Shown here one piece after another: positions 9,032-58,928 of a DNA stretch of 64,000 nucleotides; positions within the stretch are counted from its first letter, which is position 1, and every line of letters begins with the position of its first letter. This DNA is from Sulfurimonadaceae bacterium (GTDB lineage Bacteria; Campylobacterota; Campylobacteria; Campylobacterales; Sulfurimonadaceae). The notes under the pieces are model-generated. The model was not told the origin of the DNA. It saw only the letters and a program-made list of their open reading frames with translations, and searched no databases. Made by a program: the position numbers and the translations under genes. The DNA lies in contig JADGDM010000001.1 of NCBI GenBank assembly GCA_016744905.1, positions 1 to 64,000 of the forward strand, given 5' to 3'.

Positions 9032-11830
9032 ATGCATTTTTCGCAATTTAGTATCGTTAAAAAATTATTGATTTTACTCTCCATTGGTGTTCTCGTTACA
9101 CTGATTCCTTTTGTCTTGATTATGACCTCAATTGTAAAACCAAAAATCCAATCGCAGAGTCTTTTAGATGTTAAATACAGCAGTGAAAAGCTTAAACTCG
9201 AAATAGAACACACGGTTCATGATACTGAGCGCTTGGTGAAATCTTTGGCTGCACTTGGTGAGCAGTGGAATCAAGACTTTGATCAAGACAAAGCAGATTT
9301 ACATAACTTTTTAAATGTAGTTTTAGAGGATGATGTTATTGCTGGTGGAGGAATTTGGCCAGAACCTTTTGTATATGATAAGGACAAAGTATTAAGGGCT
9401 TTCTTTTGGACAAGAGACAAGCAAAAGAATTTTGTTTTTGTAGATGATTATAATAAACAAGGACGGGGCAATTATCAAGATGAAGCATGGTACAAACCCC
9501 TAAAAGAGCAAGGTGAGGCTAAGGTTGTTTGGTCTGAGCCATATATTGATCCCCATACAAAGGTTTTAATGATTACGGCTTCTGTTGGCATGTATGATCA
9601 AAAGCGCTTTATTGGGGTTGCGACTATAGATCTTTCACTTATGGGTGTCAATAGATTACTTTTAGAGGAGACATCTATTTTTAAAGGCTATGTGCTTTTG
9701 CTTAATAGTAAGCAACAACTTATAGCCTACCAAGGTCTTAACAAAATTGATGTGGATGATGATTTAATTGATAATCTTTTATTAGAACAGAAATCAGATA
9801 CAGAAATTTATAAATATTCTAATGACTCTATTTTGGGCGAAGATGCAAAAATAACCTTGTTGGAATTGGATAATATTCATTGGCAATTGGTTTTAGTACT
9901 GCCCAACAGTTATATCTACCGAAATATTGAACAAGTCTTGAAAAATGTCGTGCTTGCCATTCTTTTGATCGTTATATTGATGTTAAGCTTACCCTATATT
10001 ATTTTACAAAAAATATTGGTTAAACCGATTCAAAAGCTTTCAGAAGAACTCTCCGAAATTAAGGATCAAGATAATGAACGTAGATACTTGAATGTTGAAG
10101 GTGCTGATGAACTCAGTAGTTTGGCAAAAAGTTTTAATCTAAATGCTAGAATGGCGTACAGAGCCCAAGATAAGCAGTTAGAAACCAATATCTTTATCAG
10201 CAAAGAGATAGAGCGTAAAACAGCAGAATTACAAGCAGAAGAAGAGATGTTTGAGATACTTTTTGAAGAGGCAGCAGATGGAATATTGTTGATTAAAAAC
10301 AGCAAGTTTATCCGTTGTAATCAGACCGTTGTAAAAATGTTAAGATATGAAAACGCACAAGAGTTATTAAATGCACACCCTTCCGAACTCTCTCCTGAAT
10401 TTCAAGCTGATGGAAGAGGCTCAAAAGAGAAGGCAGATGAGATGATGAGAATAGCCATACTGAATGGTTCTCACACCTTTGAATGGATTCACCAGCGCGC
10501 TGATGGTGAGGATTTTCCGGCTTTGATTACCTTAACCAATATTAAACTCAAACATGAAGATATTATTCATGTCACGTGGAGAGATATTACACAAGAGGCT
10601 TCTTTAAAAGTAGAAATGGAAATAAAAAATATAGCGTATAAAAAACTGGCTGAAAGCCTTGAAGAAGAGGTGGAAGAACGTACCTATGAACTCTCCAATG
10701 CGCTACGCTCTAAGTCGGATTTTTTGGCCAATATGTCTCATGAGATTCGCACACCTATGAATGCTATCCTTGGATTCATTGATATATTAAGTAAAAACGA
10801 GAAAGATACCGCACGTATCGAGCAGTTTGGGATGATTAAGGAGTCTGGAAAAACATTGTTAAGTATTATCAACGATATTTTAGACTTTTCAAAAATGGAG
10901 AGTGGAAAAATGAGTATCGAATATGCGATATTTGAGACTTGTAAGCCTTTTGAGCAGTTGGTGGATTTTTATCAAGAGAAGGCACATGAGAAGTCGATTG
11001 AACTGCAGATGAATGCTTGTCCTGAAATGCCTTCTCATGCGATGGGAGATGTGGTAAGGATTAAACAAGTTGTGACCAATTTACTCTCTAACGCTATAAA
11101 ATTTACGCCAAATTTTGGAAGTATAGAGATCAGTATTGAGTATCTTGAAGTTGAGAAAAGTTTTGCCTTTGTTATTAAAGATAGTGGGGTGGGTATAAAA
11201 GAAGAAGCACTGGAAAAAATCTTCTCACCCTTTGAGCAAGAAGATGTTTCAACAACAAGAAAATTTGGTGGAACAGGCCTTGGACTTGCTATCTCCTCAA
11301 ATCTAGTGGAGCTTATGGAAGGTGAGATCAGTGTTGAGTCTGAACTGGATGTTGGAACAAGTTTTAGAGTTGTTTTACCTCTGTTTAAAGAGGACATCGC
11401 CAGTGATGCTTTAGAAGTAGTTGAAGAGTTAGATGATGAGCTAGAGTTCCTTGGTGATGTTTTAGTGGTGGAAGACAATAAGGCAAATCAGATGTTGATG
11501 AAATTACTTTTACTCGACCGTGGTTTGATGTGTGACATCGCAGAGGATGGATTGATTGCACTGCGTATGTGTAAAATTAAAAAGTATGATCTTATTTTGA
11601 TGGATGAAAATATGCCCAATATGAATGGGATAGAAGCAACAAAAAATTTAAGAGAAGACAATATTTATAAAAATGCGACAACACCAATTATAGCAGTCAC
11701 TGCGAATGCGCTCAATGGTGACAAAGAGCGATTTTTGAATGTGGGGATGGATGAGTATATCTCTAAACCAATCGATCATAAAGAGTTAGATAGAGTGCTC
11801 TCTTTATATCTAGAACGAGATGAGAGTTAG
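9032..11830 (+). CDS. Hybrid sensor histidine kinase (Cache-HAMP-PAS-HisKA-HATPase-REC)
   Basis: The 932-residue inner membrane protein has a transmembrane helix at about 10-32, a periplasmic double-Cache sensor (about 35-300, with DEAWYKPLKEQGEAKVVWSE and VLMITASVG typical of Cache), a second helix at 308-330, HAMP at 330-385, a PAS domain at 405-525, a HisKA dimerisation helix with H570 in MSHEIRTP, an ATPase domain with DSGVGIKEE and GTGLGLAIS, and a C-terminal receiver with D858 in LMDENMP. All catalytic residues are present, so it should autophosphorylate and relay internally. The final partner and periplasmic ligand are unknown. An AGGAA ribosome binding site precedes the ATG. Confidence 0.92.
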   Translation: MHFSQFSIVKKLLILLSIGVLVTLIPFVLIMTSIVKPKIQSQSLLDVKYSSEKLKLEIEHTVHDTERLVKSLAALGEQWNQDFDQDKADLHNFLNVVLEDDVIAGGGIWPEPFVYDKDKVLRAFFWTRDKQKNFVFVDDYNKQGRGNYQDEAWYKPLKEQGEAKVVWSEPYIDPHTKVLMITASVGMYDQKRFIGVATIDLSLMGVNRLLLEETSIFKGYVLLLNSKQQLIAYQGLNKIDVDDDLIDNLLLEQKSDTEIYKYSNDSILGEDAKITLLELDNIHWQLVLVLPNSYIYRNIEQVLKNVVLAILLIVILMLSLPYIILQKILVKPIQKLSEELSEIKDQDNERRYLNVEGADELSSLAKSFNLNARMAYRAQDKQLETNIFISKEIERKTAELQAEEEMFEILFEEAADGILLIKNSKFIRCNQTVVKMLRYENAQELLNAHPSELSPEFQADGRGSKEKADEMMRIAILNGSHTFEWIHQRADGEDFPALITLTNIKLKHEDIIHVTWRDITQEASLKVEMEIKNIAYKKLAESLEEEVEERTYELSNALRSKSDFLANMSHEIRTPMNAILGFIDILSKNEKDTARIEQFGMIKESGKTLLSIINDILDFSKMESGKMSIEYAIFETCKPFEQLVDFYQEKAHEKSIELQMNACPEMPSHAMGDVVRIKQVVTNLLSNAIKFTPNFGSIEISIEYLEVEKSFAFVIKDSGVGIKEEALEKIFSPFEQEDVSTTRKFGGTGLGLAISSNLVELMEGEISVESELDVGTSFRVVLPLFKEDIASDALEVVEELDDELEFLGDVLVVEDNKANQMLMKLLLLDRGLMCDIAEDGLIALRMCKIKKYDLILMDENMPNMNGIEATKNLREDNIYKNATTPIIAVTANALNGDKERFLNVGMDEYISKPIDHKELDRVLSLYLERDES

Positions 11831-13418: not shown

Positions 13419-14831
13419 CTACTTCGCTTCATCTGTATATTGATGAATCAAATCTATATATTCAAAGAGATTGTCTAGGACAATCTCTACTAAACGTGGC
13501 TCAAAAGCTTTCCCACTCTCTTCTCTTAATAGACTTTCTATACTCTCTATATTCCATGCCTCTTTATAAATACGTTTAGACGCTAAGGCATCTAAAACAT
13601 CAACTATGGCTACAATACGTGCACACTGAGGGATATCATCGCCACTTAGACCCTGAGGATAGCCACTCCCATCATACTTCTCGTGATGTGAATAGGCAAT
13701 GATAGAAGCGGTATTTAGTATACTTCTTTGAGAGTGTTTTAAAACATCATATCCTAAGACTGCATGTGTTTTCATGATCTCATACTCTTGAGTAGTCAGC
13801 TTTGCGGGTTTAAGTAAAATACTATCAGCTATACCGACTTTACCTATATCATGAAGTGGTGAAGCAAATTGAATGAGTTTTATATCTTCATCGCTAAGGC
13901 CATACTCTTTTGCAATGAGTGCGCTGAGTTTAGAGACTCTCAGTGTATGAAATTTGGTGTCTTCTGAACGTAGCTCTTCCATATTACCCATGGCCATAAT
14001 TGTCTCTTCAAGTGTCAGTTCGATCTCTTCATTAAGTTTACTAAGCTCATCATTTTTTCTTTCCAGTGCTTTCTCTCGTGCAATAACATCACCAGTAAAA
14101 TGATTGATATTTTCTGCGAGTTGTTCCATCTCTTTGATCTCATATTCCTCACTTTGAATTTGCTTATGAGATTGATAGGCTTCTTCACCTGAACTGATGA
14201 TATTTGCTAGTGGTCGGCTCAAATAACGCTCTATAAAATTAAACATATTAAAAAGAATAAGCAGTGCAATAAAAAGTAGAAAAGCAATAATAATATAGGT
14301 ATATTTAAGCATAATACTTTGGGATTGATTGATGTCAATTTCTAATGAAATAGCGCCTAAAACGTCATTTTCTTGCGCATTGTGACACTCAAGACAGTTG
14401 AGTTGTTCTTTAGAAGAAGCAATATATGGAACCAATGCTTGAACTTTTTTTTCATTATAATCCCAAGTGAAATTAGGCTCTGTATTAATAATTTTATCTT
14501 CAAGGTTAAGGTCATTCAGTTCTTGTTTAAGTGTAGAGTTTCCAAACTGCTTAAGTATATTGCTTGAGCGAATTATATGCAGTGAATTTATATCTTGAAG
14601 TCTAATTATCTCGTTAAGAAAATATTCTCTCTTAGACATAATTCCTGCTTTCATATGAGAAGTGAGACCTGCTTTAACGAGGTTTGCTATCTCTAAGGCT
14701 TTGGTTTCTACACTCAACTGAAACAGCTGTTTATAACTTAGTGCTAAAAGCATCAATATAGTGATGATTGATATTGTGAAGATCTGAACGAGCCGTATGA
14801 AAGTCATACGTTTAAGGGTTCTTTTGTGCAT
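13419..14831 (-). CDS. Membrane HD-GYP protein with a periplasmic CxxCH haem motif
   Basis: The 470-residue protein has a first transmembrane helix at 15-33, a periplasmic segment at 34-175, a second helix at 177-198, a HAMP-like linker, a coiled coil at about 250-285 and an intact HD-GYP domain: H327-D328 in LHDIGK and HHEKYDGSGYP at 382-392. Near the end of the periplasmic part is C146-L-E-C149-H150, the c-type haem attachment motif. It is therefore likely a redox, oxygen or NO sensor that controls c-di-GMP hydrolysis in the cytoplasm. Covalent haem is inferred only from the motif. The next gene upstream on the same strand starts 1.8 kb away and encodes a sirohaem enzyme. Confidence 0.88.
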   Translation of the reverse strand: MHKRTLKRMTFIRLVQIFTISIITILMLLALSYKQLFQLSVETKALEIANLVKAGLTSHMKAGIMSKREYFLNEIIRLQDINSLHIIRSSNILKQFGNSTLKQELNDLNLEDKIINTEPNFTWDYNEKKVQALVPYIASSKEQLNCLECHNAQENDVLGAISLEIDINQSQSIMLKYTYIIIAFLLFIALLILFNMFNFIERYLSRPLANIISSGEEAYQSHKQIQSEEYEIKEMEQLAENINHFTGDVIAREKALERKNDELSKLNEEIELTLEETIMAMGNMEELRSEDTKFHTLRVSKLSALIAKEYGLSDEDIKLIQFASPLHDIGKVGIADSILLKPAKLTTQEYEIMKTHAVLGYDVLKHSQRSILNTASIIAYSHHEKYDGSGYPQGLSGDDIPQCARIVAIVDVLDALASKRIYKEAWNIESIESLLREESGKAFEPRLVEIVLDNLFEYIDLIHQYTDEAK

Positions 14832-14894: not shown

Positions 14895-16640
14895 TTAAAT
14901 ACTTCCTCTCGCATAGGTTCTTTTAATTGGTGGTTTATAATGTGGATCTTGACCTTCAACCGTCCAAAGTTCTCGACTGAGTTCGCTAATGGCTAGTGAA
15001 AATTTATCTTCGATGAGTTCTAAAGTTTTGTCATTTTTGAAGTACTTCTCTAGTAAAGCTTTCTCTTGCTCAAAGGAGAGTAGCGCGCTGGGTACTTCAT
15101 CAGAAGGCAATAACTCAAGTTCTTGAGAAGTTTTAAGATTGAGCAGAAACCATAAAGATAAAAACTCTTCACTATAATGATTTAAAATCTCTGTACTATA
15201 AGACTCAAAATTCTTATATGGGCTTTTTTCAAACACAGTAATAATCAGTGAAACCACCTTATGTAAAGAGGGAAGTGGTACCATCTCAAAAAGCTGGCGC
15301 GCTACTGAATCTCCTCTATTATGCTCTGCTCCGATAAAGACTCTTGCACCCCCTTCAACAGCCCCAAAGTTATTGGTCTTCAGTCCAATAAGTCCGATAT
15401 CTACATGACGGTGACGACCACATCCTTTGGCACAACCAGAAAATCCAACATGAATTTGATGTTCTTTTATTTTTTCAAGAGGGAGATACTGTGTTTCATC
15501 TTTGATGTTCCAAAAGGCAAAAGGACAGTACTCACTACCCGCACACGCCATAATGGTGTTACTTATTTTTGGTGACTTTAATGTCTCTAGTTTTGTTTTT
15601 AAACCAAGAAGGTAGATGTTTTGATCGATACCTATACGGATTTCAGCCTCTTCTTTGAGTGCTAAAGAAGAGATACTCTCTAACTCCAGCGCGCTGACTC
15701 GTCCAAAGTCACTCTCATAACAGTGTGAAAAACTACCATCATTTAAGGGCTCATCAATTTCAAAACGACCTGTTTCTATAATGCGCTCACCAGCGGAAAC
15801 AAACTCTTCCTCATACGCTTCATGTAGATAATTTTTAAAGGTGTCTAATCCTATCTCTTTGAGTAGATAAAACAGTCGTGTGCGGGCACGACTAGCGCGT
15901 GATCCGTGTTTGTTAAATGTCTCAACAAAGGCTTTGAAAAATTTTAAAACTTGATCAGGAGTTAAAAAGATATCTGCGCAGCGTGCTACTTCTGTATTTT
16001 TTCCACCTAGAAAAACATTAAAGCCATAACTGCCATCTTTAAGTGCCAGTGCGAAGAAGAGATCATTGGCGTATAGTGAAGTTACATTGGCACTGTTCCC
16101 AGAAATACCAACAGATATTCGACGTGGTAACATACCCACATAAGGGGGATTTTGAATGATAAATTCTTGCATATCCATCACAATATCTGAGGCTTTAAGT
16201 TTTGAGTAACGACCCTTATCATCATAAACATCACAGACGATATTGCGGATATTATCACCAAAACTTTGCCAGGTAGAAAGACCCGTTGCATTGACAGCCT
16301 TCCAAATTTCTAAAATATTTTCTGCTTCTAAACCAGAGATTTGCATCCCTGCACGTGCAGTTAAAATGAGGTCTAAGTCATACTCTTCTAATATTTTAGA
16401 AATTGAGAGTGATTGTTTGGCTGTGATACGTCCAGCAGGGAGTCTTAGTCGGAGGGTGAAGTCTTCTTCTGCAAACTCAGCATTATAGATACCAAAGTCT
16501 TGAAGATAGTAACGATCTGCCTCTTGAAGATTTTCAAAGTCAAGTGTTTCAAACTCTTTAAAAAAATCTATAGGACGCAGTCGCGCCTTATATCGTTCAC
16601 GTTTGTTTATCTTTTTAAAAGCATCTGTCATTTCACTCAT
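14895..16640 (-). CDS. Sirohaem-dependent nitrite/sulfite reductase
   Basis: The 581-residue cytoplasmic protein has the repeated ferredoxin-like half-domains of sirohaem reductases and the four cysteines that bind the coupled 4Fe-4S cluster and sirohaem: C366-x5-C372 in CAGSEYCP and C403-x3-C407 in GCAKGCG. Such enzymes carry out six-electron reduction of sulfite to sulfide or nitrite to ammonia. Sequence alone does not tell which, and the family in Campylobacterota is simply called nitrite/sulfite reductase. Length matches the assimilatory one-subunit group. An AAGGGG ribosome binding site precedes ATG 16640. No sirohaem synthesis or sulfate assimilation genes are next to it. Confidence 0.88.
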   Translation of the reverse strand: MSEMTDAFKKINKRERYKARLRPIDFFKEFETLDFENLQEADRYYLQDFGIYNAEFAEEDFTLRLRLPAGRITAKQSLSISKILEEYDLDLILTARAGMQISGLEAENILEIWKAVNATGLSTWQSFGDNIRNIVCDVYDDKGRYSKLKASDIVMDMQEFIIQNPPYVGMLPRRISVGISGNSANVTSLYANDLFFALALKDGSYGFNVFLGGKNTEVARCADIFLTPDQVLKFFKAFVETFNKHGSRASRARTRLFYLLKEIGLDTFKNYLHEAYEEEFVSAGERIIETGRFEIDEPLNDGSFSHCYESDFGRVSALELESISSLALKEEAEIRIGIDQNIYLLGLKTKLETLKSPKISNTIMACAGSEYCPFAFWNIKDETQYLPLEKIKEHQIHVGFSGCAKGCGRHRHVDIGLIGLKTNNFGAVEGGARVFIGAEHNRGDSVARQLFEMVPLPSLHKVVSLIITVFEKSPYKNFESYSTEILNHYSEEFLSLWFLLNLKTSQELELLPSDEVPSALLSFEQEKALLEKYFKNDKTLELIEDKFSLAISELSRELWTVEGQDPHYKPPIKRTYARGSI

Positions 16641-17449: not shown

Positions 17450-19036
17450 ATGTTGATACGTCTTTTAATCATTCTTACACTTTTAGCACTTGAACTTTCA
17501 GCACTAAATGTAGAGTACTTCTATGATAAAAATTCAACATTAAGCTTTACTCAAATCCAAAGTGTCGACTTTAAAAAATCAAAAAACCCTTTCACGTACG
17601 GATATAAAGAGGGTGATGCTTGGTTTAAAATTGAGATCGAAAATGTGTATGACAGTGAAGAGTTGATTCTCTATTTTAGTGAACCTCTCTGGGAGAAATT
17701 TGATTTCTATTCACTAGATAATGGTGAAGTTACCGTATTTAATGCGGGACTATTGGTTTCCTTAGAAAAACGACAAATTTTAGATGTTAATCCCGCTTTT
17801 GTACTAAATATCCCTCTTTACAGTTCTAAAACGTATTATATAAATGCCAAGACTGTTTCTGGACAATTGGGTGAATTTCAAGTAAAAACCGCCAAAGAGT
17901 ATTACAGTCCCACACATTTTAGTTTAACAGGGAAATATCTTCTTTTTCTAAGTATGCTTTTAGTGGTTTTGATTTTAAATCTTTATCTATTTATTAGACG
18001 ACGTGAGCGTATTTATGGATATTATGTGGCTTATCTTGCTTCGTTTATGGCTTGGATTGCAATTCTTAGTGGAATTTATCTGATTTTTGGATTTAATGGT
18101 TGGAACGAAGGGTTACACGCTTCTGGAACCTTTGTGGTACTCTTTTTAGCACTGTTTTCAGCAGAATATTTAGAATTAAAGGAACGTAGAGACAAACTCA
18201 ACCTGGTATTTAATCTTTTTATTGTGTCGTTTATTTTGTTGGCAATTTTAATTACTCTAAAAATCCCATATGCTACACCTATATTTAATATTTTTGCTTC
18301 TGTATTTTTTACACTGCTCCTTATTGTGGCCATTAAAGTCTATCAAGAAGGGCATCTAAAGATGCGCTATTATTTGGTAGCACTGATTGTTTATATGCCA
18401 ACAATGATGATTATGACCCTTAATTTTAATAATATTATTGCTAACAATGACATTACACGTTATGCCTATGTCTTTGGATCTATGGCTGAGATACTATTTT
18501 TTAACTCTTTGATGATTACGCGTTATAGTGAAGCAGCAACGGAGGCCAATGTAGATGTCTTATCTAACCTTTATAATAGAAGATATTTTCAAAGCTACTC
18601 TCAAAAAAGCTTTTCTGAAATGCGTAATAATGATGAGAAGTTTTCTATTTTGATGATTGATATTGATAATTTTAAAATAGTTAATGATACCTATGGTCAT
18701 GCGGTAGGGGATGAGGTTATTAAAAAATGTGCAGAGATTATGAGTAAATTGACACGACTTGATGATATTGTAGCGCGCTATGGAGGAGAGGAGTTTATCG
18801 TGATGATGAAAAACTCACAAGCGCCAAGTGTTCTTGATGTGGCCAATCGAATTAGAGAGACCATCGCTTCTTCAGGGCTTATATTGAAAAATGAAGAGCG
18901 CGTTTCTTTTACAATTAGTCTGGGGATCAGTCATCTTGAATTTAGTGATGAAGATATAGAGATGGTTATTCAGCGCGCTGATAAGGCGCTGTATCAAGCG
19001 AAGGCCGAGGGTAAAAACAAAGTGGTGGTTTTTTAA
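17450..19036 (+). CDS. 7TMR-DISM diguanylate cyclase
   Basis: The 528-residue inner membrane protein has a signal sequence, a periplasmic 7TMR-DISM extracellular domain (about 20-150), seven hydrophobic helices (about 160-360) and a C-terminal GGDEF domain. The active site is GGEEF at 445-449, and an inhibitory I-site R436-x-x-D439 lies exactly five residues before it, so the enzyme should make cyclic di-GMP and be inhibited by its product. The extracellular domain belongs to a group thought to bind carbohydrates. The gene has its own TATAAT promoter. It opposes the two HD-GYP enzymes in the window. Confidence 0.93.
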   Translation: MLIRLLIILTLLALELSALNVEYFYDKNSTLSFTQIQSVDFKKSKNPFTYGYKEGDAWFKIEIENVYDSEELILYFSEPLWEKFDFYSLDNGEVTVFNAGLLVSLEKRQILDVNPAFVLNIPLYSSKTYYINAKTVSGQLGEFQVKTAKEYYSPTHFSLTGKYLLFLSMLLVVLILNLYLFIRRRERIYGYYVAYLASFMAWIAILSGIYLIFGFNGWNEGLHASGTFVVLFLALFSAEYLELKERRDKLNLVFNLFIVSFILLAILITLKIPYATPIFNIFASVFFTLLLIVAIKVYQEGHLKMRYYLVALIVYMPTMMIMTLNFNNIIANNDITRYAYVFGSMAEILFFNSLMITRYSEAATEANVDVLSNLYNRRYFQSYSQKSFSEMRNNDEKFSILMIDIDNFKIVNDTYGHAVGDEVIKKCAEIMSKLTRLDDIVARYGGEEFIVMMKNSQAPSVLDVANRIRETIASSGLILKNEERVSFTISLGISHLEFSDEDIEMVIQRADKALYQAKAEGKNKVVVF

Positions 19037-32010: not shown

Positions 32011-35000
32011 ATGCGTTTATATCAATTCCGCTCTTATCTATTCAGCTTTTTTTTGGCATTGGGATTTTTCCTGATGTTCTTGGGATGTTCAGATGACAAT
32101 AATAGTACGCCACCAGCTAAAGCTGTAAAAACATACTCCATTAGTGGGTTTGTTCAAAAGGGTCCATTTAAAGCTGGATCTAAAGTAGTCGCTTATCAAT
32201 TAGACGAGAAGGGACAAAAAAGCGGAAAAAAAGTTTCTGCGGTTGTTAAAGAAAAAGGGGCTTATGAAGTTAAGGTTCCCTGGAAGGGAGAGACCCTTGT
32301 TGAAGCAGAAGGTGAGTACTTTGATGAAGTCAAAGGCGAATACAGTAAAGAGAAGGTCAAACTCTCGGCTGTTGAAAAAGTAGAAGAAAAAGGTCTTAAA
32401 GCCAATGTGAATGTTTTTACTGAACTGGAAGGAAAACGTAAGGTTGTTCTTTTAGAAGAGGGTAAAAAATACGAAGAGGCTGAAGAAGAGGTAAAAAAAG
32501 AGATGGAAGATCTTTTTGGATTGCCTAGAGATGTTAAAGCCAGCGAACTGGACATCTCTAAACTTAAAGAGGAAGAAGATCTCAAAAAAGAGAATGCACA
32601 ACTGCTGCTATTTTCAGTCAACCTTTTAGAGAGTACAAAAAAAGATTTTAATGCCTCTTCAAACCTAGGAAAATTGGTTAAAGATTTTGGTCAAAATGGT
32701 GAGGTTGATGAAGAGGGTAAGGTTGTTTGGAACGAGATTGTTCAAGGGGGCTCACGTAGTATTGGCGTAGCGGTCATAGACAAAATCAATGAATTTTATA
32801 AAGAAGAATTTGTTGTTGCAGATATTCCTTCGATACCAGGAAATATTTATAGACCACATATCAATGTAGAAAACATGGGATTTTTAACACCTGATGAGAT
32901 CACTATTCATGTGGAACTAACGGCGCTACTTTTACAAGATACCAATATCAGTGTTGATTTTAGCAGTATTAATGACAGCGCGCTAGAAGGGATAAATTAT
33001 GTTGCCAGTAGTGGGACAGTCGAATTGCGTAGTAATGGTGATAGTGGGGCAGATATTGTTATTCCTATTATTCAACGTAGTGATGAAGAGATCGGTTTTT
33101 ATATTGAGTTTAATACCAGCGATATTGCCAGTATATCTGGTGCGCGTACAGAGGTAATTATTCCACCTTTAGAGATAGATGCGGTTGAAGCAGGGAGTAT
33201 TAAACTCACATCACTGAGTTTGACAGAGACCGTGGTCAATGGCGTGGCACATGCGGGTGATACGCTTTTTGTAGAAGATGATGCCAACATCAGTGCCAAA
33301 CTTTTTCTTAAAAGTGAAAAAGTATGTTCTGCTGATAAAACATGTCCAATCCAGCCATATTATGTCGATATCTTTGCTTCAAGTGGTGGGGAGAGTATCT
33401 CTTTAGGCTCTCAATATATCCCAGCAAGTGCCATCACTTCAAGTACGGCGACAAAAGGCAGTACCCTTTTTGGTAAATCTGTTGGACACAGTCTTATTAT
33501 CAATCTGAATAATACTGAATATCGTACCTTGGCAGATGAGGCATTTAGAGAAGGTAATGATGTTGAGTTTAAGTTGGTAGTTCAAGCTGAGTTGGGCATC
33601 GCCTTACCTGGTCAAAAAATACCAACAGTTGAGTGGATTACAACACAAGCTGCTACCTTGGCAAAAATTGATTTAGAATTGCATGTTGGTACAGCGGTCA
33701 TAAACTTAGATGACTTAGAACTTATAAATATGGTTGAGGACTGTAACTATCGCGCTATATCAGAAGTTTCAAATGAAGTGATTATTATTGATGGTATAGG
33801 GAAAACAGCTGCTCCTGTGGAGCGAAGAGCATCGAGTTCAGAGCTGTTTGTTCGCGTTGATGCCAGTGGAGTTTGGGGTGATTATGATGCAGGTTTAAGT
33901 TATCAAGATGCCTGTGTAAAACTCACTTATGATGATACGGCTAAGATCTATATCCCGAGTTTAATTCAAGGTCATTCGAGTGTCACAACGATAAATACCA
34001 ATATAGACTCTATAGAGATTTCAAGTATAGATTTTCAGCTTAATGCGGATGGAGTCTCTTTTAGTGGCGATGCCAGCATTAAACTGCCTAGAAAATTGGC
34101 TGCAAAAGAGTCGAAAGAGAATTTTCAAGAAATTTTTATGAAGCGTCTGTATTCAAAAAGTATGCATGTTGAGTTTATAGATGAAGAGAGTAAGTACGAC
34201 TTAAATTCACTTAGTGGTAAATTTTCTAAAAAATATATCCTGACAACAGAAGATGTCCCTTACTCTCTTATCTTGGCTAAAGATGAAACCTTTACAATCA
34301 CTCAAGAGGAAGGATTTCACTCACGTAGTGAAGGGCAGATAGATTTACAACTTTACAACAGCTTGAATTTTCTTGCACTGGGGGGAAACAGTTTTGACAA
34401 GGTGGTCAGTAATACAGCGCGCTCAATCAATGTGATCTCTACATCAAGACCTTTTAGTTTTGATAGTGGGGGTCTTGATTTTGAGTTAGACTTTTCAGCA
34501 ACGAAGAGTTTTACGACACACTATCCTAAGTTAAAAGTAACGCCAATTGCGCAAGGTTATCAACGTATTGAAAATTCAAATATCGTGGAGAGTCGTTTTC
34601 CTGAGAATTATACGATGGATCAAAGAGTTAACTGTAAAAACTGTGTAAAACAAGTGCTCAGTGAAACTTTGACATTTACAACACTTGAATCCAATCAAAG
34701 TAAGCTTTTATCTCATGGGGCTATTGCAACTCAAGTACAGCTTAATCAAGATGTTCATTGGGGTATTCGTGGAATATCAACAAAAGTATATACCCATAAA
34801 AACAGTGAGAGTGAATCGGTGAGTTCACTTTTATATATTCCCGGGATGAGTTTTGCCACAGATTCGGAGCATTATGTTACAGATTACTTGATGGGGAATG
34901 TTGATCTTATAGAAAATGATCAAAACAAAATACTTGAAAATGCCTTTTATACTATAGATACTTTAGAGAGTCGTCGTGGTAACCATTTTATGGCAGGAGT

Positions 35001-38000
35001 AAATGTGGGGCCACAACATCTCAGAGATGCACAAGGTCAACCATCATTTACTTCAAGCTTAGGTGATACCTTAAATGATGAACTTTTCTCTGTTGTTATC
35101 GGAGGCGCTTCTGCTAGAGAGTTTAGCTCTAATGCCGGAAGTAAATATCTTCTTCGTCCAGAAGGAATCACCGGAACATTTAACAATCAAGTAGCAGATC
35201 TTGGCTTTGATGTGTATGGTTTTGATATGAATTTTGATCGTTTTAGTTTTAGAAATATTATCAATGTCGGTGATACATACAGTTGGATAGATGGTAATAT
35301 TTATGTACCAAATAAGGGTAAGTTTGATCTTGGCTTTAAAAGTTTGGGACTCTCTTGTCGGGGTGATTTTGATGGTGGTCGTATAGATAGAGATTTTGCT
35401 GAAGCTTTTTCACAATCTTTAGACGGTTGGAAAACTTCAACAGACTTTACCACCATCGCTTTTGAAAGTGACGATGCACAGAGCTGTTCAGAATCAACAA
35501 GACTCTTGGCACTAGGACATATTTTAGAGATTAACGCTTTTGAAGACAACTTGGCTCTGCGAGCGCGCTGGAGTAGCGCAGGAGATGTGAATGATGCACG
35601 TATCTTAGGTAAAAGCTTTAATGTTTTAGATGCGAGTGAAGATAATGAAGGATTCAATGTTGTTTTTGATCCAGAATCAGTGACAATGAAAGAGAGTTGG
35701 TACCAACTTAATGCGATGTTGGGTCTTCCATTTTGGGAAGCACTTAGTACAACTATACGTGTAAATAACAGTACAACAAACAGTGCTGGACAGAGTGTTG
35801 TCACGCAAAAAGATGTTTTAACTTTAGATGATACACGTTCAGCAGAGAGTATATTAGCAACTAAAGATGCCAATGGTTTGAAAGCAATTTATAACTGGGG
35901 AAGTATCGGTTTTAAAATTACCCTACCCATCTATTATGAGGTTGGACGTGCGGTAAATAATCTTATTCCTAAATTTAAAGGAGTTAAAGAGAGTCAAGAT
36001 CTGTATGCAATGAGTGCAAGTGCAGGTGTACGCTTAATCGAACCCGATAGAACGGGTGTAGATTTTGGCGCGAGTGTAGATGTGGCTGCATTGACCGATT
36101 TAAATCTATCTATACATATTGATATTAATGATCCGGTCAGTGTTTTAAGTATTGATAACTTTTTAGCAACCTATCTTCAAATAGGGAACTCACCACAGAG
36201 TGATGGTCCACTTAAAAGCTCTATTGGTGAACTTCAAGAAAAACTTTCTATTATGAAAAGGCTTACGGGTAAAAGTATTGAGTTGGTTATGAACAGAGTT
36301 TTACATGAACTGCTGTCTCAAAAAATCAATGGTCTGGATCCTTTTGAAGAAGTTTCTAATGCCTTTGCGATTATCCATGCTATGCCAGCGCGTATTGCGA
36401 ATCTTTCAAATGTATTTTTAAATGATCAATTAGAACGGGTGGTGTCTCCTTTAGAAAACCTGGTGAGTGCGGGTTATGATATGAATACAATTTATCTTGA
36501 TTTACCTCAGTTGATAGTGGATACGCCGATTGAGGCTGATGCAACAGAAGTGCCCTCAGAGATCAAAATATACACAGATAAACTACGTGCAATTGCACAC
36601 GGTTTTGGTGAAGTGCGATATGTCTTAGATGAGACACATGGAAGAATTGATGAAGCGCAGGCGGCTTTAGATGAGATTTATACAGTTTTAGAGTACGCAG
36701 ATACTATTGAAGCGACGATGAATACACTGAATTCTCACCTTGAAAGCTTGCTTGTAATTGGGAACAGTGCAGGCAGTCAATGTATCTTAAATACAGATCC
36801 GATTAACTTTAATGTAAGTACCAACTTTGGTATGTTAGAGCCGATGAGTGAAATGTTAAATGCCTTAAATCGAGCAACAGATCTTTTAAATGAAGTAGAT
36901 GTTGTGAGTGGATTTGCTTCTCCTGTGGGAGAAATTGTTGGTATTGATATGGCACCTTATGAGCAGATGCAACGTCAAATTCATCTCCTGTCTCAAAGTG
37001 TGAATGATCGACGTGCAAGCTTAATGCAGGGACTTCAAACAGAGGTAGATAAGATTTGTGCCAGTGGTGGAGATGTTGTTGGAATTATCTCTGATACGCA
37101 AGAAATTTTAAGTTCGATGACAAGCAAAGTAAGCAATGTAAAAATGGAACTGCTTAATATTATTGATCAACAGAAAATCCTTTTTGATCAGCTGCGCGCT
37201 GCTGAGATTGATGGAATGATGAGTCTCGAAGAGTTGGCACTACTTTCACGTAGTATGGAAGAGTATTTTAATTACTTGGCAGATGAGATTGATGGAACAT
37301 ATCTCTCATTAAACCAGACATTCAACAATCCTTATGATGGATCTTTAGAGGTATTTCAAAGAACTTTTCAAAGAGAGCTAGAACAGTATTTAGCACCTTA
37401 TAATGCGTTTGCGCTTGAGGGTGAGATTCGTTGGGATTTACCGGGTGAACAGTTGATTTTAGGGGCGATAGAAGATCGTTTACGTATCCCATTTGAAAAA
37501 GCCATTGATGAGATGACAGATAAGCTAGAACAAGGTTTAGTAAATTCAATCGCACAAGTACCAAATCCAACAGCAGATGAGTTACGTGAGTTGGTTGTAG
37601 CACAGATTATGAATCTTGAAGTTGTTGAGTCACTACGTATACAAGCCAATGATATTTTAAGTGGCTTAAGTGAAGATATAGACAAGCTTTCATTACAACT
37701 TTTTGCAATGATTAATAAAAGTGTGCAAGAGATTGTATCGGCTGCAGTGGCTGAGATAAATGAAAAATTGGCAGGGGCAACAGAGTCATTTAAAAACAAT
37801 ATCCCTATCAAGGCCGTTGGTGTTGATGGATATGCAATTGTTGCGGGTGAAGAGTTAGAACAGGTACATCTCAGTGCAGACTGGGAAGTTGCTGGTGACA
37901 GTGATGATTCAAGTCTGAAATATGGAGCTGATTTTGATATGAGACGTTGGAGTGCTAGAGATGAAGATGGTGAAACGCAAGGGTGTGTTAGTGATGCAGA

Positions 38001-38760
38001 AGCTAAAGATTTGATTGACATCACTATTGCAGCGCGTAACCTAGGTATGAACTTAGGAGAACAGAGTTTTAGATTTGATCTTATTGAGTTGGGTATTACC
38101 ATTAAAGACTCTATTCCAAATGGTGTCTTTGGAAGCATTACCTCGTATGATGGTTTTGATTTAGATGCTTTCAAACTTTACGATATGGCCTTGGTTACAG
38201 GAGTGGGTCAATTACAAAACTTCTTAGGGGCTAAGGTATCTGCTATCTTTGATCAGTATCAACTCTCTGCTGCATTTCTAGCAGGTAAGACATGTGGCGA
38301 CAAATATTTAAAACGTTTAGACCCTGAGGTTGCAGAGTTTATAACCCTACCAAATAATGTCTTTAATGGTGTTTATCTCCGTGGTGGTGCGAGTATCCCT
38401 GTTTATAATGGAGGTTGTGCATTGACCGTAGGTGTTCAAGCAGATATGGGTCAATGGCTCATTTTAGGACCACCACTGACCATCGGTGGTCTAGTTGGTG
38501 GTGGTGCGAATGGGGAAGCCTTGTGTATTGCATCAATTAAAGGATATGTACGCGCTATGGCTGAGGTCTCAGGTGATGTGGTTAAATTCAATGGTTCAGG
38601 ATGGGCTGTTGCAGGAGTAGGTTCATGTTCACGTAGTAGCTGGACATCAGTGAGTCGTAGTAGAGGTGATAGTTGGTGTGGAACCGGAGATGCTAAATTT
38701 GAAGTTTCGTACGATCAGGGTTGGTCTTTAGATGAACTTTCAACATCAGCAGTACATTAA
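32011..38760 (+). CDS. Giant (2249-residue) surface lipoprotein of unknown function
   Basis: The protein starts with a lipoprotein signal with MFLGC (C26). Residues about 40-70 (SISGFVQKGPFKAGSKV) look like a small beta domain common at the N-terminus of big surface lipoproteins, followed by a Lys/Glu-rich region. About 284-384 resembles a Calx-beta domain. The long middle (400-1500) is beta-rich and unrecognised. Residues about 1510-1940 are helical with coiled-coil-like heptads, and the C-terminal about 300 residues are Gly- and Cys-rich. No catalytic motif is seen. It heads a four-gene operon with the paired TTGCAAYG promoter, and the next gene begins 10 bases after its stop. A structural role in a cell-surface complex is plausible but unproven. 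Confidence 0.85.
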   Translation: MRLYQFRSYLFSFFLALGFFLMFLGCSDDNNSTPPAKAVKTYSISGFVQKGPFKAGSKVVAYQLDEKGQKSGKKVSAVVKEKGAYEVKVPWKGETLVEAEGEYFDEVKGEYSKEKVKLSAVEKVEEKGLKANVNVFTELEGKRKVVLLEEGKKYEEAEEEVKKEMEDLFGLPRDVKASELDISKLKEEEDLKKENAQLLLFSVNLLESTKKDFNASSNLGKLVKDFGQNGEVDEEGKVVWNEIVQGGSRSIGVAVIDKINEFYKEEFVVADIPSIPGNIYRPHINVENMGFLTPDEITIHVELTALLLQDTNISVDFSSINDSALEGINYVASSGTVELRSNGDSGADIVIPIIQRSDEEIGFYIEFNTSDIASISGARTEVIIPPLEIDAVEAGSIKLTSLSLTETVVNGVAHAGDTLFVEDDANISAKLFLKSEKVCSADKTCPIQPYYVDIFASSGGESISLGSQYIPASAITSSTATKGSTLFGKSVGHSLIINLNNTEYRTLADEAFREGNDVEFKLVVQAELGIALPGQKIPTVEWITTQAATLAKIDLELHVGTAVINLDDLELINMVEDCNYRAISEVSNEVIIIDGIGKTAAPVERRASSSELFVRVDASGVWGDYDAGLSYQDACVKLTYDDTAKIYIPSLIQGHSSVTTINTNIDSIEISSIDFQLNADGVSFSGDASIKLPRKLAAKESKENFQEIFMKRLYSKSMHVEFIDEESKYDLNSLSGKFSKKYILTTEDVPYSLILAKDETFTITQEEGFHSRSEGQIDLQLYNSLNFLALGGNSFDKVVSNTARSINVISTSRPFSFDSGGLDFELDFSATKSFTTHYPKLKVTPIAQGYQRIENSNIVESRFPENYTMDQRVNCKNCVKQVLSETLTFTTLESNQSKLLSHGAIATQVQLNQDVHWGIRGISTKVYTHKNSESESVSSLLYIPGMSFATDSEHYVTDYLMGNVDLIENDQNKILENAFYTIDTLESRRGNHFMAGVNVGPQHLRDAQGQPSFTSSLGDTLNDELFSVVIGGASAREFSSNAGSKYLLRPEGITGTFNNQVADLGFDVYGFDMNFDRFSFRNIINVGDTYSWIDGNIYVPNKGKFDLGFKSLGLSCRGDFDGGRIDRDFAEAFSQSLDGWKTSTDFTTIAFESDDAQSCSESTRLLALGHILEINAFEDNLALRARWSSAGDVNDARILGKSFNVLDASEDNEGFNVVFDPESVTMKESWYQLNAMLGLPFWEALSTTIRVNNSTTNSAGQSVVTQKDVLTLDDTRSAESILATKDANGLKAIYNWGSIGFKITLPIYYEVGRAVNNLIPKFKGVKESQDLYAMSASAGVRLIEPDRTGVDFGASVDVAALTDLNLSIHIDINDPVSVLSIDNFLATYLQIGNSPQSDGPLKSSIGELQEKLSIMKRLTGKSIELVMNRVLHELLSQKINGLDPFEEVSNAFAIIHAMPARIANLSNVFLNDQLERVVSPLENLVSAGYDMNTIYLDLPQLIVDTPIEADATEVPSEIKIYTDKLRAIAHGFGEVRYVLDETHGRIDEAQAALDEIYTVLEYADTIEATMNTLNSHLESLLVIGNSAGSQCILNTDPINFNVSTNFGMLEPMSEMLNALNRATDLLNEVDVVSGFASPVGEIVGIDMAPYEQMQRQIHLLSQSVNDRRASLMQGLQTEVDKICASGGDVVGIISDTQEILSSMTSKVSNVKMELLNIIDQQKILFDQLRAAEIDGMMSLEELALLSRSMEEYFNYLADEIDGTYLSLNQTFNNPYDGSLEVFQRTFQRELEQYLAPYNAFALEGEIRWDLPGEQLILGAIEDRLRIPFEKAIDEMTDKLEQGLVNSIAQVPNPTADELRELVVAQIMNLEVVESLRIQANDILSGLSEDIDKLSLQLFAMINKSVQEIVSAAVAEINEKLAGATESFKNNIPIKAVGVDGYAIVAGEELEQVHLSADWEVAGDSDDSSLKYGADFDMRRWSARDEDGETQGCVSDAEAKDLIDITIAARNLGMNLGEQSFRFDLIELGITIKDSIPNGVFGSITSYDGFDLDAFKLYDMALVTGVGQLQNFLGAKVSAIFDQYQLSAAFLAGKTCGDKYLKRLDPEVAEFITLPNNVFNGVYLRGGASIPVYNGGCALTVGVQADMGQWLILGPPLTIGGLVGGGANGEALCIASIKGYVRAMAEVSGDVVKFNGSGWAVAGVGSCSRSSWTSVSRSRGDSWCGTGDAKFEVSYDQGWSLDELSTSAVH

Positions 38761-38770
38761 AGGATATATG

Positions 38771-41700
38771 ATGAAATTATTATTAACACTACTACTACTT
38801 CTATTTAGTTTGAATTTAAATGCTGCTGATCAGCAATTTTACTTTATCGCAAAAAAAGCACCATTGGGTTCACTCAGTAGTTTTGGGCAGTCTGAAGAGG
38901 GTGTTTACTTAAGATGGGAGACGGTGGAAGGTTCTTTACCTTCAGAGATAGTTGCGTTTGAATTAAGACGTGATGGCGCAGTTATCGAAGTTTTTGATGC
39001 ACATCTTTTTGAGGACACTAAAGGTATTGATGCTCTGTATGGTGACATGGAAAATGAACGTAGAAGACTAGAGACTATGAGTGCGTTGAGTCGTTATGGC
39101 GCTTCTCAAGACCCTGTTGTAAATGTTGGATTAAGTAATTTTTCCATTGTTTTAAGAAGTCAATTAAGTGAAGAGTATTGGTCATTTCTTGCTTCGCGTC
39201 TGGATTTTAATGTAGCGCGTGCACGCCACCGTGCTTACTTGGATACGGCGGTTACTTCAGGGTTACATAACTATGAACTTTTAGCCATCTCCGCTACCGA
39301 TGTGGCCAAACGTTTGGCCTACTTAGAAATCGATTTGGATGTTGATTATCAAAGTTCAGGTGCGGTAGATTTAGAGCAGGTGTATAAGTCTCAATGTACT
39401 TCTCCTGAGTATGCACTGGATCATTTTACAGTGGCACTACACTGGAGCAATGCAGGAACAAATGAGGCGGAGACGTTTCTTAATTCTGTTAATATTGCAG
39501 GGTATGATGTTTACCGTACTAAAAAACGTAATGCGACAGATGCGGACTTGGGTTTAGATATCAAGACGATGGCCAAAGATTATTCGCATAATGCTTATGG
39601 TGTAGTAGAAATTGCAAGTTTAGAAAAAGTAAATAATTCTCTAATCGTTTTAGATTCTGATGACAACAGCAGTGAAAAGTCTGTAGCTTTTTTAGAGACT
39701 ATCGATCAGTTGAAAAAAGCTGGAATCAAAGCTGGTGACAGTATGGCTTACTATGTCGTCTCTCGAGATTTTACTGGTAATTATGGACCTACTGCGTCTA
39801 TTTTGGTGAAAGTTCCTGATTTAACACCACCACCAACACCATGGATGATTCAAGTAGCCAATGACAGCAGTTTGGAAACCAGTGTGATTAGTTTTGATGC
39901 GGTGAGTCAACAAAATTATATTCAACAATTTCAAAATTATCGTAAGTTCTGTTCACATGACATAGAGAATAAACTCTATTTTGTGGATTTAGATAAAGAG
40001 TGTGGTGAGGGTGAAGTTGAAGTTAACTTAGATGTGGAAAAATATCTGGTTTATCGTTTTGGTAGTTTTGAAGAAGCAGCGAATTTTAGTGATGCGGATG
40101 GAGATGGATATAGTGATGTGAGTGAAACATTGGTTCCGTCGAACAATGCAGAGTGTCGTGATGATATGATTCCCGTTGGTGTAAAAAATTATTTACTTCA
40201 AGATCTGGAGTTTGAACATAAAGTTTTTGATAACGCACATGAAATAGTACGCTTTAGTGACAGTACAGCATTTGAAAACTTAGGTGAGATTTATTGGTAC
40301 CGTATCGCTTCTGCTTCATCACAAGACAATGTTATCAGTCCATTATCAGGGCCAATTAGACTTTACTTTCCAGATAGAGCCTTACCTGCGCGTGCTGATA
40401 TTGAGGCAGAGCTAAGCTACTGTACGAAAAATTTATATATTGCAGAGGGTGAACCTTATTTGAGATATGTGAGACATCTTGCAACAGATGAGACAGGACT
40501 TGCGCAAAAGTTTGCGGTCGAATGTCTTAAACAAGATGGTCCAGAGAAGATGATTTTTGATGTGAATGATGGCATTGTTTATAATGAAACAAACACAGAT
40601 ATCTTTACTTGGAGACGTGAGTGTTTAGAAGGAGAAGCAAAAGGCAAGGTTAAAATATCTTTTAACAAGGTTGATGGTAAAGGGACATTATTGCCTATCG
40701 AGTCAAAAGTGCTTGAAGATGATGAGGTTCATGTGGGTAAAAGTGGCTTGAGTATCTACTCATGTAAATACAAGTATGCGCTAAAAGGAAAAGGTTGTGA
40801 AAGAAAAGAGGATTTTACGGCGGTCATTCCTGGACAAATTTTGCCTGAAACACCTATACTAACGGTTGCAACAGATGATTGTGTTGAGCTTGGATATACC
40901 CATCAAGGTCGTTACCATAAGATAAAACAAGAGTGTAATACAACAGCTGAGATAAATTGGTTAGATGAACTTCTTCCACATGAGATTGATAATATCTGTT
41001 TAAGTGTGCGCACACATAATCACAACAATCAGATCTCAGCAGCACTGAATTTATCTTGTTTTTCAATTTTACCAACTAAAAAACCATCAGCACCATCGCT
41101 TCAGTCGCTTAGCTTTAATGGCAACAGTGCAAATTTCACTTGGTTGCCTCCAGTAGAGCGTGTTAATGGTACTTTAGTTGAGTTAAGAAGACAAGATTCA
41201 AATGAGAGCTACAGTATTTTTACCCCACATGTTGATTATGAACTAGATGGGGTGAGATTAGAAAATAATCAGACCCTATTAACATTGATTAATGAGGAAC
41301 AGTGGTGTATTAGAGCGCGCTCTGTTGCTAAAGGTGCGAGTGTTAGTAGTGTCGATATGCTCTCCCAATGGTCCAGTGAAATTTGTGAGATACGTTCAAA
41401 CGAGATCTCTCAAGCACAATACCTACCATGGCCTGAAGTTAAAAGAATAGAGCCAGATACTGAGTTACTTACGACTTCTTATAATGCAGATGAAGAGCAT
41501 ATAGAGCTCTTTTTAAGTGATGTTAATGTCGTTATAAAAAATCAAGACTATCCTGGAGCAACTTTAATAGAAGAGTCTTGTTATACCTTAGAGAAGAAAA
41601 TTAGACCCCATCTTAATTATGTGGTTTACCGACAAAGTATCTCACCACAAGGTGCGGTTTCAAGAATGATACAGGTTTCTGCTCAAGTTAATGAGATGAC

Positions 41701-42046
41701 ATTAATTCCTTTAAGTAGCTCAGAATCTCTCGCCGCTACTTTTGGAATTACACCAAAAACGGCAGGAAACTATTGTGTTATTCTAGATCTTCAAATGGAC
41801 ATTACCGATGGTCGTTTATTGGGTACGGAGTTGGTTTATTTAGATGGTATTGCAGAGTTACCTGGATATACCTACAGATTTGAGGTGGTTTATTTTGACG
41901 ATTATGGTGAAATTACCGGACTAAAAGTGAGTGATCCAGTTTTAGTACCTGAAGTACCTGTGTACTATATTCCGGTATTTTCAACACCAATATTTATGCA
42001 AGACACATCGGTTAATACACCGGTGTATTTGATTGGAGGAAATTAA
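38771..42046 (+). CDS. Secreted fibronectin type III-like protein
   Basis: The 1091-residue protein has a cleavable signal peptide (MKLL, a Leu-rich core, LNLNA) from ATG 38771; the AAAGGA ribosome binding site is 6 bases before it, so ATG 38768 is less likely. The mature protein has several beta-sandwich stretches that look like fibronectin type III modules, for example PSAPSLQSLSFNGNSANFTW and PTPWMIQV. A DADGDGYSD motif near residue 445 resembles a thrombospondin type 3 calcium loop. There are many Cys residues. It is not lipid-anchored, so it is secreted or held by the giant lipoprotein. It lies 10 bases after that gene and 1 base before the next. Confidence 0.8.
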   Translation: MKLLLTLLLLLFSLNLNAADQQFYFIAKKAPLGSLSSFGQSEEGVYLRWETVEGSLPSEIVAFELRRDGAVIEVFDAHLFEDTKGIDALYGDMENERRRLETMSALSRYGASQDPVVNVGLSNFSIVLRSQLSEEYWSFLASRLDFNVARARHRAYLDTAVTSGLHNYELLAISATDVAKRLAYLEIDLDVDYQSSGAVDLEQVYKSQCTSPEYALDHFTVALHWSNAGTNEAETFLNSVNIAGYDVYRTKKRNATDADLGLDIKTMAKDYSHNAYGVVEIASLEKVNNSLIVLDSDDNSSEKSVAFLETIDQLKKAGIKAGDSMAYYVVSRDFTGNYGPTASILVKVPDLTPPPTPWMIQVANDSSLETSVISFDAVSQQNYIQQFQNYRKFCSHDIENKLYFVDLDKECGEGEVEVNLDVEKYLVYRFGSFEEAANFSDADGDGYSDVSETLVPSNNAECRDDMIPVGVKNYLLQDLEFEHKVFDNAHEIVRFSDSTAFENLGEIYWYRIASASSQDNVISPLSGPIRLYFPDRALPARADIEAELSYCTKNLYIAEGEPYLRYVRHLATDETGLAQKFAVECLKQDGPEKMIFDVNDGIVYNETNTDIFTWRRECLEGEAKGKVKISFNKVDGKGTLLPIESKVLEDDEVHVGKSGLSIYSCKYKYALKGKGCERKEDFTAVIPGQILPETPILTVATDDCVELGYTHQGRYHKIKQECNTTAEINWLDELLPHEIDNICLSVRTHNHNNQISAALNLSCFSILPTKKPSAPSLQSLSFNGNSANFTWLPPVERVNGTLVELRRQDSNESYSIFTPHVDYELDGVRLENNQTLLTLINEEQWCIRARSVAKGASVSSVDMLSQWSSEICEIRSNEISQAQYLPWPEVKRIEPDTELLTTSYNADEEHIELFLSDVNVVIKNQDYPGATLIEESCYTLEKKIRPHLNYVVYRQSISPQGAVSRMIQVSAQVNEMTLIPLSSSESLAATFGITPKTAGNYCVILDLQMDITDGRLLGTELVYLDGIAELPGYTYRFEVVYFDDYGEITGLKVSDPVLVPEVPVYYIPVFSTPIFMQDTSVNTPVYLIGGN

Positions 42047-42047
42047 A

Positions 42048-51660: not shown

Positions 51661-51669
51661 GGGGTCGGG

Positions 51670-56423: not shown

Positions 56424-56424
56424 G

Positions 56425-57414: not shown

Positions 57415-57424
57415 GGGTTGATGT

Positions 57425-58036: not shown

Positions 58037-58045
58037 GGAGAGTTG

Positions 58046-58618: not shown

Positions 58619-58923
58619 TGGAAATTGGTTTATCACACTACCTAATACTAACTACTATTCTTTTTTCAATTGGTTTAGTAGGTGTAATGAGACGTAAAAA
58701 TCTTCTAATGCTTTTCTTTGCAACAGAGATTTTACTAAATTCTGTAAATATCGGTTTTGCAGCTATCTCTTATTATATTGGTGACTTTACTGGTCAAATG
58801 TTTGCATTCTTCATCATCGCTATCGCTGCGTCTGAAGTTGCCGTGGGTCTTGGACTTCTTATTGTTTGGTTTAAAAGAACTGGCAATATCGATCTTGACT
58901 CTATGATATCGATGAAAGGATAA
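58615..58923 (+). CDS. nuoK: Complex I subunit NuoK
   Basis: The 102-residue protein has three helices and the Glu of the NuoK helix-2 motif in MLFFATEILLNSVNI, plus the second conserved Glu in AASEVAVGLGLLI. It starts at ATG 58615 (a second ATG lies at 58618) within an ATGA overlap with nuoJ. Confidence 0.95.
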   Translation: MMEIGLSHYLILTTILFSIGLVGVMRRKNLLMLFFATEILLNSVNIGFAAISYYIGDFTGQMFAFFIIAIAASEVAVGLGLLIVWFKRTGNIDLDSMISMKG

Positions 58924-58928
58924 TACAT

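Follow-up and report, generated by a model that had tools for sequence, protein, structure and literature searches.

A predicted haem-c sensor joined to an HD-GYP domain

The window, that is the whole stretch of 64,000 nt analysed here, carries at positions 13419 to 14831 a gene whose product is predicted to join a periplasmic haem-c sensor of the Cache type to an HD-GYP phosphodiesterase. The span agrees with the one given in an earlier note on this DNA, and the open reading frame lies on the minus strand; the plus-strand reading of the same interval contains 27 stops. Rfam returned zero matches over the 64,000-nt window, i.e. no RNA element. The gene and its parts are as follows.

13419 to 14831, minus strand: whole gene, predicted haem-c Cache / HD-GYP phosphodiesterase, 470 aa; stop codon at 13419 to 13421
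14733 to 14801, minus strand: transmembrane helix 1, residues ~11-33 (hydropathy)
14310 to 14732, minus strand: periplasmic haem-c sensor domain (predicted), sCache_heme-like, residues 34-174 (AF2 model, Foldseek)
14652 to 14654, minus strand: Met60, predicted distal (sixth) haem ligand (invariance, and alignment to GSU0582/GSU0935 via the chemoreceptor family A6)
14382 to 14396, minus strand: C146-L-E-C149-H150, predicted covalent attachment site of haem c with proximal ligand H150 (sequence, conservation)
14238 to 14309, minus strand: transmembrane helix 2, residues ~175-198 (hydropathy)
14082 to 14237, minus strand: HAMP-like linker, residues ~199-250 (conserved P207 and E234; AF2 helices; YfiN match below cut-off)
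13980 to 14081, minus strand: signalling helix / coiled coil, residues ~251-284 (AF2 helix 233-289)
13452 to 13979, minus strand: HD-GYP domain, residues ~285-460 (Pfam; alignment to PmGH, PDB 4mcw; residue check)
Key residues of the HD-GYP domain: H295, H327, D328, K331, H356, H382, H383, GYP 390-392, D411, D414

The protein begins with a positively charged start and TM1, which together make up residues 1-33. Two hydrophobic spans were found (start residues of the 19-aa windows: 8-19 and 170-186), and since they flank the CxxCH motif, the motif is placed in a periplasmic loop. Pfam matched neither HAMP nor any sensor domain in the 470-aa protein. The connection between sensor and output had been described as a HAMP domain; here we call it HAMP-like. 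Pfam HAMP was absent in the window protein and among the first 25 of the 56 families listed for 72 aligned sequences; however, residues 199-250 have the size of a HAMP domain, P207 (71/72) and E234 (72/72) are conserved in these sequences, and the helices of the AlphaFold2 model (168-221 and 233-289) fit. The NCBIfam model YfiN gave a match below its cut-off over residues 153-273.

The CxxCH motif is kept in close and distant relatives

The protein contains three cysteines in total. A C..CH pattern arose in only 75 of 200,000 shuffles of its sequence and the motif occurs in all relatives, which rules out a chance CxxCH. Homologues were collected in two ways. The first 253 residues were used as a query (E up to 0.001) against 200 genomes of the window's family, 169 of which matched; 45 homologues were taken together with their loci, 34 with HD-GYP (including the window's own copy) and 11 with GGDEF. 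CxxCH was present in 45/45 and in a distant MCP of the host genome (L054), giving 46 rows. GTDB species genomes were scanned with the patterns AGLT[SA]HMK and KR[DEA]YFLxEI, both of which lie outside CxxCH. This yielded 80 loci, one of which (L131) had no usable ORF, and the motif was found in 79 of the 79 with a domain ORF.

Altogether, C..CH was seen in 107/107 full-length HD-GYP homologues, 84 of them distinct after removal of duplicates between the two sets, and the record labels of these homologues span six phyla. With all 84 carrying the motif, its loss in close relatives, named in the earlier note as grounds for abandoning the haem, was not observed. Four contig-end fragments (L075, L088, L097 and L124) have an incomplete HD-GYP domain. 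The sensor alignment, referred to as A4, has 79 rows and was made without L075 and without a gapped L124 row. Nine columns of A4 are invariant (full-length numbering): T57, M60, M65, E74, P135, C146, C149, H150 and G159. CxxCH is thus invariant in 79/79 rows, and sits before strand 130-139 of the model. The protein therefore has an extracytoplasmic CxxCH as expected of a c-type haem protein, the covalent haem itself being predicted.

The sensor is related to the haem-c Cache domains of Geobacter

An AlphaFold2 model of the sensor was built from A4 with a mean pLDDT of 89.2; it is a monomer with the haem unmodelled, whereas the GSU sensors are domain-swapped dimers in crystals, as reported for the GSU0935 structure (PMC8396549; here and below, statements from papers cited by PMC number refer to those sections of the papers that were available). 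A Foldseek search with the model against 350,542 PDB chains placed GSU0935 (3b42) at ranks one (E 3.4e-5) and two, with Tll0287 (5b82) at rank five and GSU0582 (3b47) at rank nine, although the alignment to 3b42 had a TM-score of only 0.41, an rmsd of 14 and ~15% identity. The haem-free Cache domains of WalK, CitA and DcuS were interspersed among these matches, and VIA re-alignment gave WalK a Z of 9.9 and Tll0287 a Z of 9.3. GSU0935 had no row among the best 50 VIA-align entries, an absence that we do not read as evidence. Since WalK scores slightly above Tll0287, the modelled fold by itself is of the Cache type, and the haem assignment comes from the motif and the matches to haem proteins. 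The haem site C146, C149 and H150 was found where it had been located, in a loop placed in the periplasm by hydropathy, and the best fold match is a haem-c sensor.

Pfam searches with the sensor gave only weak or chance matches. The window protein had no match above cut-off to PF11845 (Tll0287-like) or PF21563 (Mcp40H-20_sensor). Among the 79 members of A4, six matched PF21563 at E < 0.01, the best at 6.9e-5 being below the cut-off (for scale, 7.9e-5 corresponds to 23.4 bits and the cut-off is 27), and none matched PF11845 at E < 0.01. Direct searches of the PDB with sensor profiles returned chiefly cytochrome c3, aligned over no more than the CxxCH stretch; GSU0935 was matched weakly by the A2 profile (E 0.31) and was not found with the A4 profile.

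Because the direct profile link to GSU0935 is weak, an MCP family from the window's phylum was used as a bridge. This family, A6, comprises 19 MCP sensors (L054 and L171-L188), in all of which the Met is invariant. A4 and A6 were aligned by hhalign with a probability of 99.6 and an E of 1.7e-23, and A6 in turn matched 3b47 (E 2.4e-5) and 3b42 (E 2.1e-4). By these profile comparisons, the sensor is homologous to solved sCache_heme members through A6. PF21563 was matched by 14/19 and PF11845 by 13/19 of these chemoreceptor-sized homologues (E up to 0.01). Two chemoreceptors of the A6 type, L054 (by Pfam) and L169, were viewed at full length.

Met60 is the predicted distal haem ligand

Met60 was present in 111 of 112 HD-GYP or partial rows, the exception being the gapped second row of L124, and it is kept in 13/13 GGDEF proteins and in the one MCP. 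One of the two scan patterns contains Met60, so the loci found with it are not independent for this residue; Met60 was also present in all 45 homologues from the pattern-free protein search and in the 10 scan rows lacking the Met-containing pattern. On hhalign, Met60 of A4 falls on the invariant Met of A6, which falls on chain residue 26 of both GSU0582 and GSU0935. The offset from the CxxCH histidines of these proteins (His143 and His144) identifies chain residue 26 as their Met60. In GSU0935, His144-Met60 ligation is described for one haem of the crystal, with Met60 bound when the haem is reduced, released on oxidation and displaced by CO and NO (PMC8396549). The adjacent His59, too, is close to invariant: of the 111 HD-GYP or partial rows that have residues at this position, 109 keep it and two have Gln. 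It is an alternative candidate ligand.

The host genome encodes a Cytochrom_C_asm domain within a 1055-aa frame, a size that we take to be that of a fused CcsBA; with such a protein present, haem c can be made. We infer, with good support, that haem c is attached to C146 and C149 by a CcsBA-type synthase, that H150 serves as its proximal ligand, and that the distal ligand is Met60 of the long N-terminal helix.

The HD-GYP domain retains the metal-ligand positions

Pfam assigned the C-terminus to HD_5 (4.2e-27) and HD (3.2e-21), and the alignment to PmGH (PDB 4mcw) ran ungapped over 205 residues (E 8.8e-49). The list of PmGH metal ligands was taken from PMC4159591. Residues E185, H189, H221 and D222 of PmGH correspond to D291, H295, H327 and D328 in the window protein, and H250, H276, H277 and D305 to H356, H382, H383 and D411; the counterparts of K225 and D308 are K331 and D414. 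Each of the eight ligand positions is therefore filled, with one Asp for Glu (Asp291 at the E185 position), and HD, HHExxDGxGYP and the metal-ligand set are all in place. On the Pfam assignment, the PmGH alignment and these residues, the HD-GYP domain is intact, as had been claimed.

D183, which is essential in PmGH, is replaced by Ser289, and Ser occupies this position in 66/72 aligned sequences. The metal ligand H383 is Gln in 7/72. These seven relatives (L099, L110, L116, L120, L121, L123 and L125), which read HQE for HHE and have lost the metal ligand, are all labelled Pseudomonadota. From its sequence, and despite Ser289, we expect the domain of the window protein to be an active c-di-GMP phosphodiesterase.

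Distribution of the sensor and its outputs

When 102 sensors were placed in a tree, all 88 from the HD-GYP set grouped on one branch (99/100), separate from the 13 of the GGDEF proteins and from that of the MCP. Since contig-end fragments are among the 88 and the position of the root is undefined, they are read as one cohesive group, not as a proven single origin. Labels within the group are Campylobacterota, Pseudomonadota, Nitrospirota, Thermodesulfobacteriota, Myxococcota and Acidobacteriota. As the records are mostly MAGs, individual ones could have been mis-binned; L116, whose title is Sulfuricella sp. T08, bears no MAG label, and L076 derives from a single cell.

Among 298 genomes of the window's phylum (Campylobacterota, as its named relatives suggest), 84 contained the sensor at E up to 1e-10. 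Among the matches listed for these 298 genomes, the stronger ones were mostly frames of 600-645 aa and the weaker ones mostly MCP-sized (~530-560 aa), and the HD-GYP form, judged by open-frame size, was found in four genomes (G000, G052, G063 and G323). The 600-645 aa class was GGDEF in 13/13 proteins inspected (by Pfam for five; a GGDEF-type motif was seen in 12 of the 13, and the thirteenth, L053, is among the Pfam five). Within the window's phylum, HD-GYP is thus a minority output of the sensor next to GGDEF among the matches listed. In the family set, the HD-GYP form occurred in 34 genomes, at least 20 of which also had a frame of the GGDEF size class, a co-occurrence that was counted by eye, with the GGDEF proteins of G063, G098 and G179 fetched and confirmed. 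A search of the host genome itself for a GGDEF partner with the same sensor, with E up to 1 allowed, gave an MCP and no such partner.

The GGDEF proteins with the haem-c sensor (L039-L045, L050-L053, L132 and L133) are ~611-618 aa long. Nine of the 13 have a CxxC near residue 372, in the cytoplasm between the membrane part and GGDEF, which is perhaps a second redox or metal site. Judging from their titles, most of the relatives' records come from bacteria of sulfur, iron and nitrogen redox gradients, which suggests a sensor family spread over organisms of sulfide, iron, nitrate and oxygen gradients.

Genome context

The host genome has 63 GGDEF matches and 14 matches to the window query, mostly to its HD-GYP part. 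Two further HD-GYP proteins with a periplasmic CxxCH are encoded on one contig (C48), in genes separated by ~1.3 kb and a single intervening gene. One of 783 aa (L008, 235-2583) has the motif in a Tll0287-like sensor (3.4e-21) followed by GAF, HD-GYP and GGDEF; the other, of 577 aa (L189, 5046-6779), has it in a Tll0287-like sensor as well. Together with the window protein, they indicate that haem-c control of HD-GYP is predicted in two sensor subfamilies of this genome. NirS-type and NosZ-type genes are also present, and periplasmic NO is therefore expected.

Upstream of the gene, on the same strand, lies a gene for a 581-aa NirA-like nitrite/sulfite reductase (14895-16640). None of the flanks searched at the other homologue loci contained a nirA-like gene, and an operon with the reductase was therefore rejected. 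Flanking-ORF clusters were mainly housekeeping genes shared within lineages; no conserved operon was found among the searched homologue loci, and the neighbourhood lends no support for a function. A Cache-PAS hybrid histidine kinase (9032-11830) and a 7TMR-DISM GGDEF cyclase (17450-19036) make this a stretch rich in signalling genes, though the order is not conserved. Elsewhere in the window, three consecutive large ORFs of 2249, 1104 and 1225 aa (32011-45710) had no Pfam match at 1e-5 except Lcl_C at the end of the third, and 49627-63925 holds a Complex I-type cluster with two NuoG-like subunits, one flavin/Fe-S subunit and three proton-antiporter subunits.

A proposed haem switch and its alternatives

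The protein is probably a haem-c Cache sensor in which displacement of Met60 by haem oxidation or by NO switches c-di-GMP hydrolysis. It would be a one-component signalling enzyme, with TM1, periplasmic Cache, TM2, linker and HD-GYP in order. In the reduced resting state, by analogy with GSU0582 and GSU0935, Met60 would sit on the haem iron; oxidation of the haem, or binding of NO (or CO), would release it. Its release would shift the N-terminal helix and TM1, and the HAMP-like linker would relay the movement to the dimer of HD-GYP domains. More c-di-GMP might then be hydrolysed, the sign being the least certain step, and a higher periplasmic redox potential or NO would favour motility or dispersal. 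The earlier note had linked redox, oxygen or NO to the removal of c-di-GMP; redox and NO are retained here, and oxygen is the least likely signal, the family members investigated elsewhere binding NO/CO or acting as redox switches, and those of PMC12889525 forming no stable oxy-complex (PMC12889525, PMC8396549).

The protein may instead be primarily an NO sensor, in which periplasmic NO made by NirS binds the ferrous haem and redox only sets the NO-competent form. We regard this as a serious possibility, though not as the preferred reading. It fits the NirS and NosZ genes of the host and a signalling-type sCache_heme member with slow NO release and no stable oxy-complex (PMC12889525), but for the NO-binding member of that preprint the sixth ligand is deduced to be water instead of Met, and the Met-ligated GSU sensors have been interpreted as redox switches (PMC8396549). 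It is likewise quite possible that the sensor responds to redox only, with Met60 binding or leaving the iron as a readout of the cytochrome pool or of the potential in the periplasm. The homology of Met60 to the redox-linked switch of GSU0582/GSU0935 speaks for this, as do the relatives' titles, largely of redox-gradient bacteria (the habitat being an interpretation), but the same GSU domains bind NO and CO, so that the sequence does not tell redox sensing from gas sensing.

An inactive HD-GYP domain, working through contacts with other proteins or by binding c-di-GMP without cleaving it, appears unlikely. The Ser289 in place of the D183 needed in PmGH and the loss of H383 in 7/72 relatives would agree with it, but none of the eight metal-ligand positions is vacant (one has Asp where PmGH has Glu), and K331, D414 and GYP are kept. 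Very unlikely is a CxxCH that serves as a disulfide, zinc or structural site without haem in an ordinary small-molecule Cache domain, since, although the haem-free WalK-type Cache is about equally close in fold, H150 is as invariant as both Cys, the best Foldseek match is a haem-c domain, the distal Met is retained and a c-haem synthase is encoded in the genome.

Relation to known systems

The preferred reading, a Met60-switched haem-c Cache sensor controlling HD-GYP, has its closest counterparts in GSU0582 and GSU0935 of Geobacter sulfurreducens (3b47 and 3b42; related family PF21563), which share the Cache/PAS-like periplasmic fold, the late CxxCH, the homologous distal Met60 and two TM helices ahead of the output. 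They differ in having an MCP output in place of HD-GYP, and the window domain has no Pfam call and ~15% identity to them in the Foldseek alignment. Members of the sCache_heme / DUF3365 / Tll0287-like family (PF11845) likewise link a periplasmic Cache with covalent haem c (predicted here) to signalling outputs; however, the sixth ligand of Tll0287 is Cys, whereas that of the window protein is Met60 (predicted), and the window domain has no PF11845 match. Campylobacterota are enriched for sCache_heme according to the preprint of Deshpande et al. 2026 (PMC12889525), the available sections of which give GGDEF and EAL as outputs and contain the term 'HD-GYP' zero times.

GSU2622 of Geobacter, described as HAMP/GAF/HD-GYP with one c-haem motif (PMC8396549), also has a haem-c motif and HD-GYP in one protein; it differs by its GAF domain, and is known here by its annotation, not its sequence. 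Bhr-HD-GYP of Ferrovum and the globin-coupled-sensor HD-GYP of Vibrio fluvialis similarly connect an iron-based oxygen/redox sensor to an HD-GYP phosphodiesterase, but their sensors are a non-haem diiron hemerythrin (PMC8846402) and a globin haem (PMC10882959), respectively, instead of a periplasmic covalent haem c. PmGH (4mcw) is alike in its catalytic domain and has a GAF domain where the window protein has the haem-c sensor, and D183 where it has Ser289.

A haem-containing sensor had been called much less common for HD-GYP than for other outputs. This holds in so far as HD-GYP is the minority output next to GGDEF in the phylum, among the matches listed; it is weakened by the two other haem-c HD-GYP proteins of the host genome, by GSU2622 (as described in the available part of PMC8396549) and by the six phylum labels. 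Searches of the open-licence literature listed no paper on the function of an HD-GYP protein that carries haem c in the periplasm; the closest mention is that of GSU2622, in the available part of PMC8396549.

Haem or redox inputs to c-di-GMP listed in the review tables available in PMC8846402 are globin, PAS, H-NOX, FIST and hemerythrin. The route from the periplasmic redox state or NO to the c-di-GMP network has so far been mostly obscure. Here, a predicted covalent haem outside the membrane and a c-di-GMP phosphodiesterase lie in one polypeptide, in which the role of Met60 is directly testable. As the same sensor is found on a GGDEF cyclase and on HD-GYP in many genomes of the family, one haem state could drive synthesis and degradation in opposite directions. 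It is conceivable, if rather doubtful, that this Met-switch haem-c Cache branch, uncalled by Pfam, generally feeds periplasmic redox/NO signals into c-di-GMP, with GGDEF and HD-GYP oppositely driven as a rheostat of electron-acceptor supply. In gradient habitats, the choice between attachment and movement should hinge on this supply.
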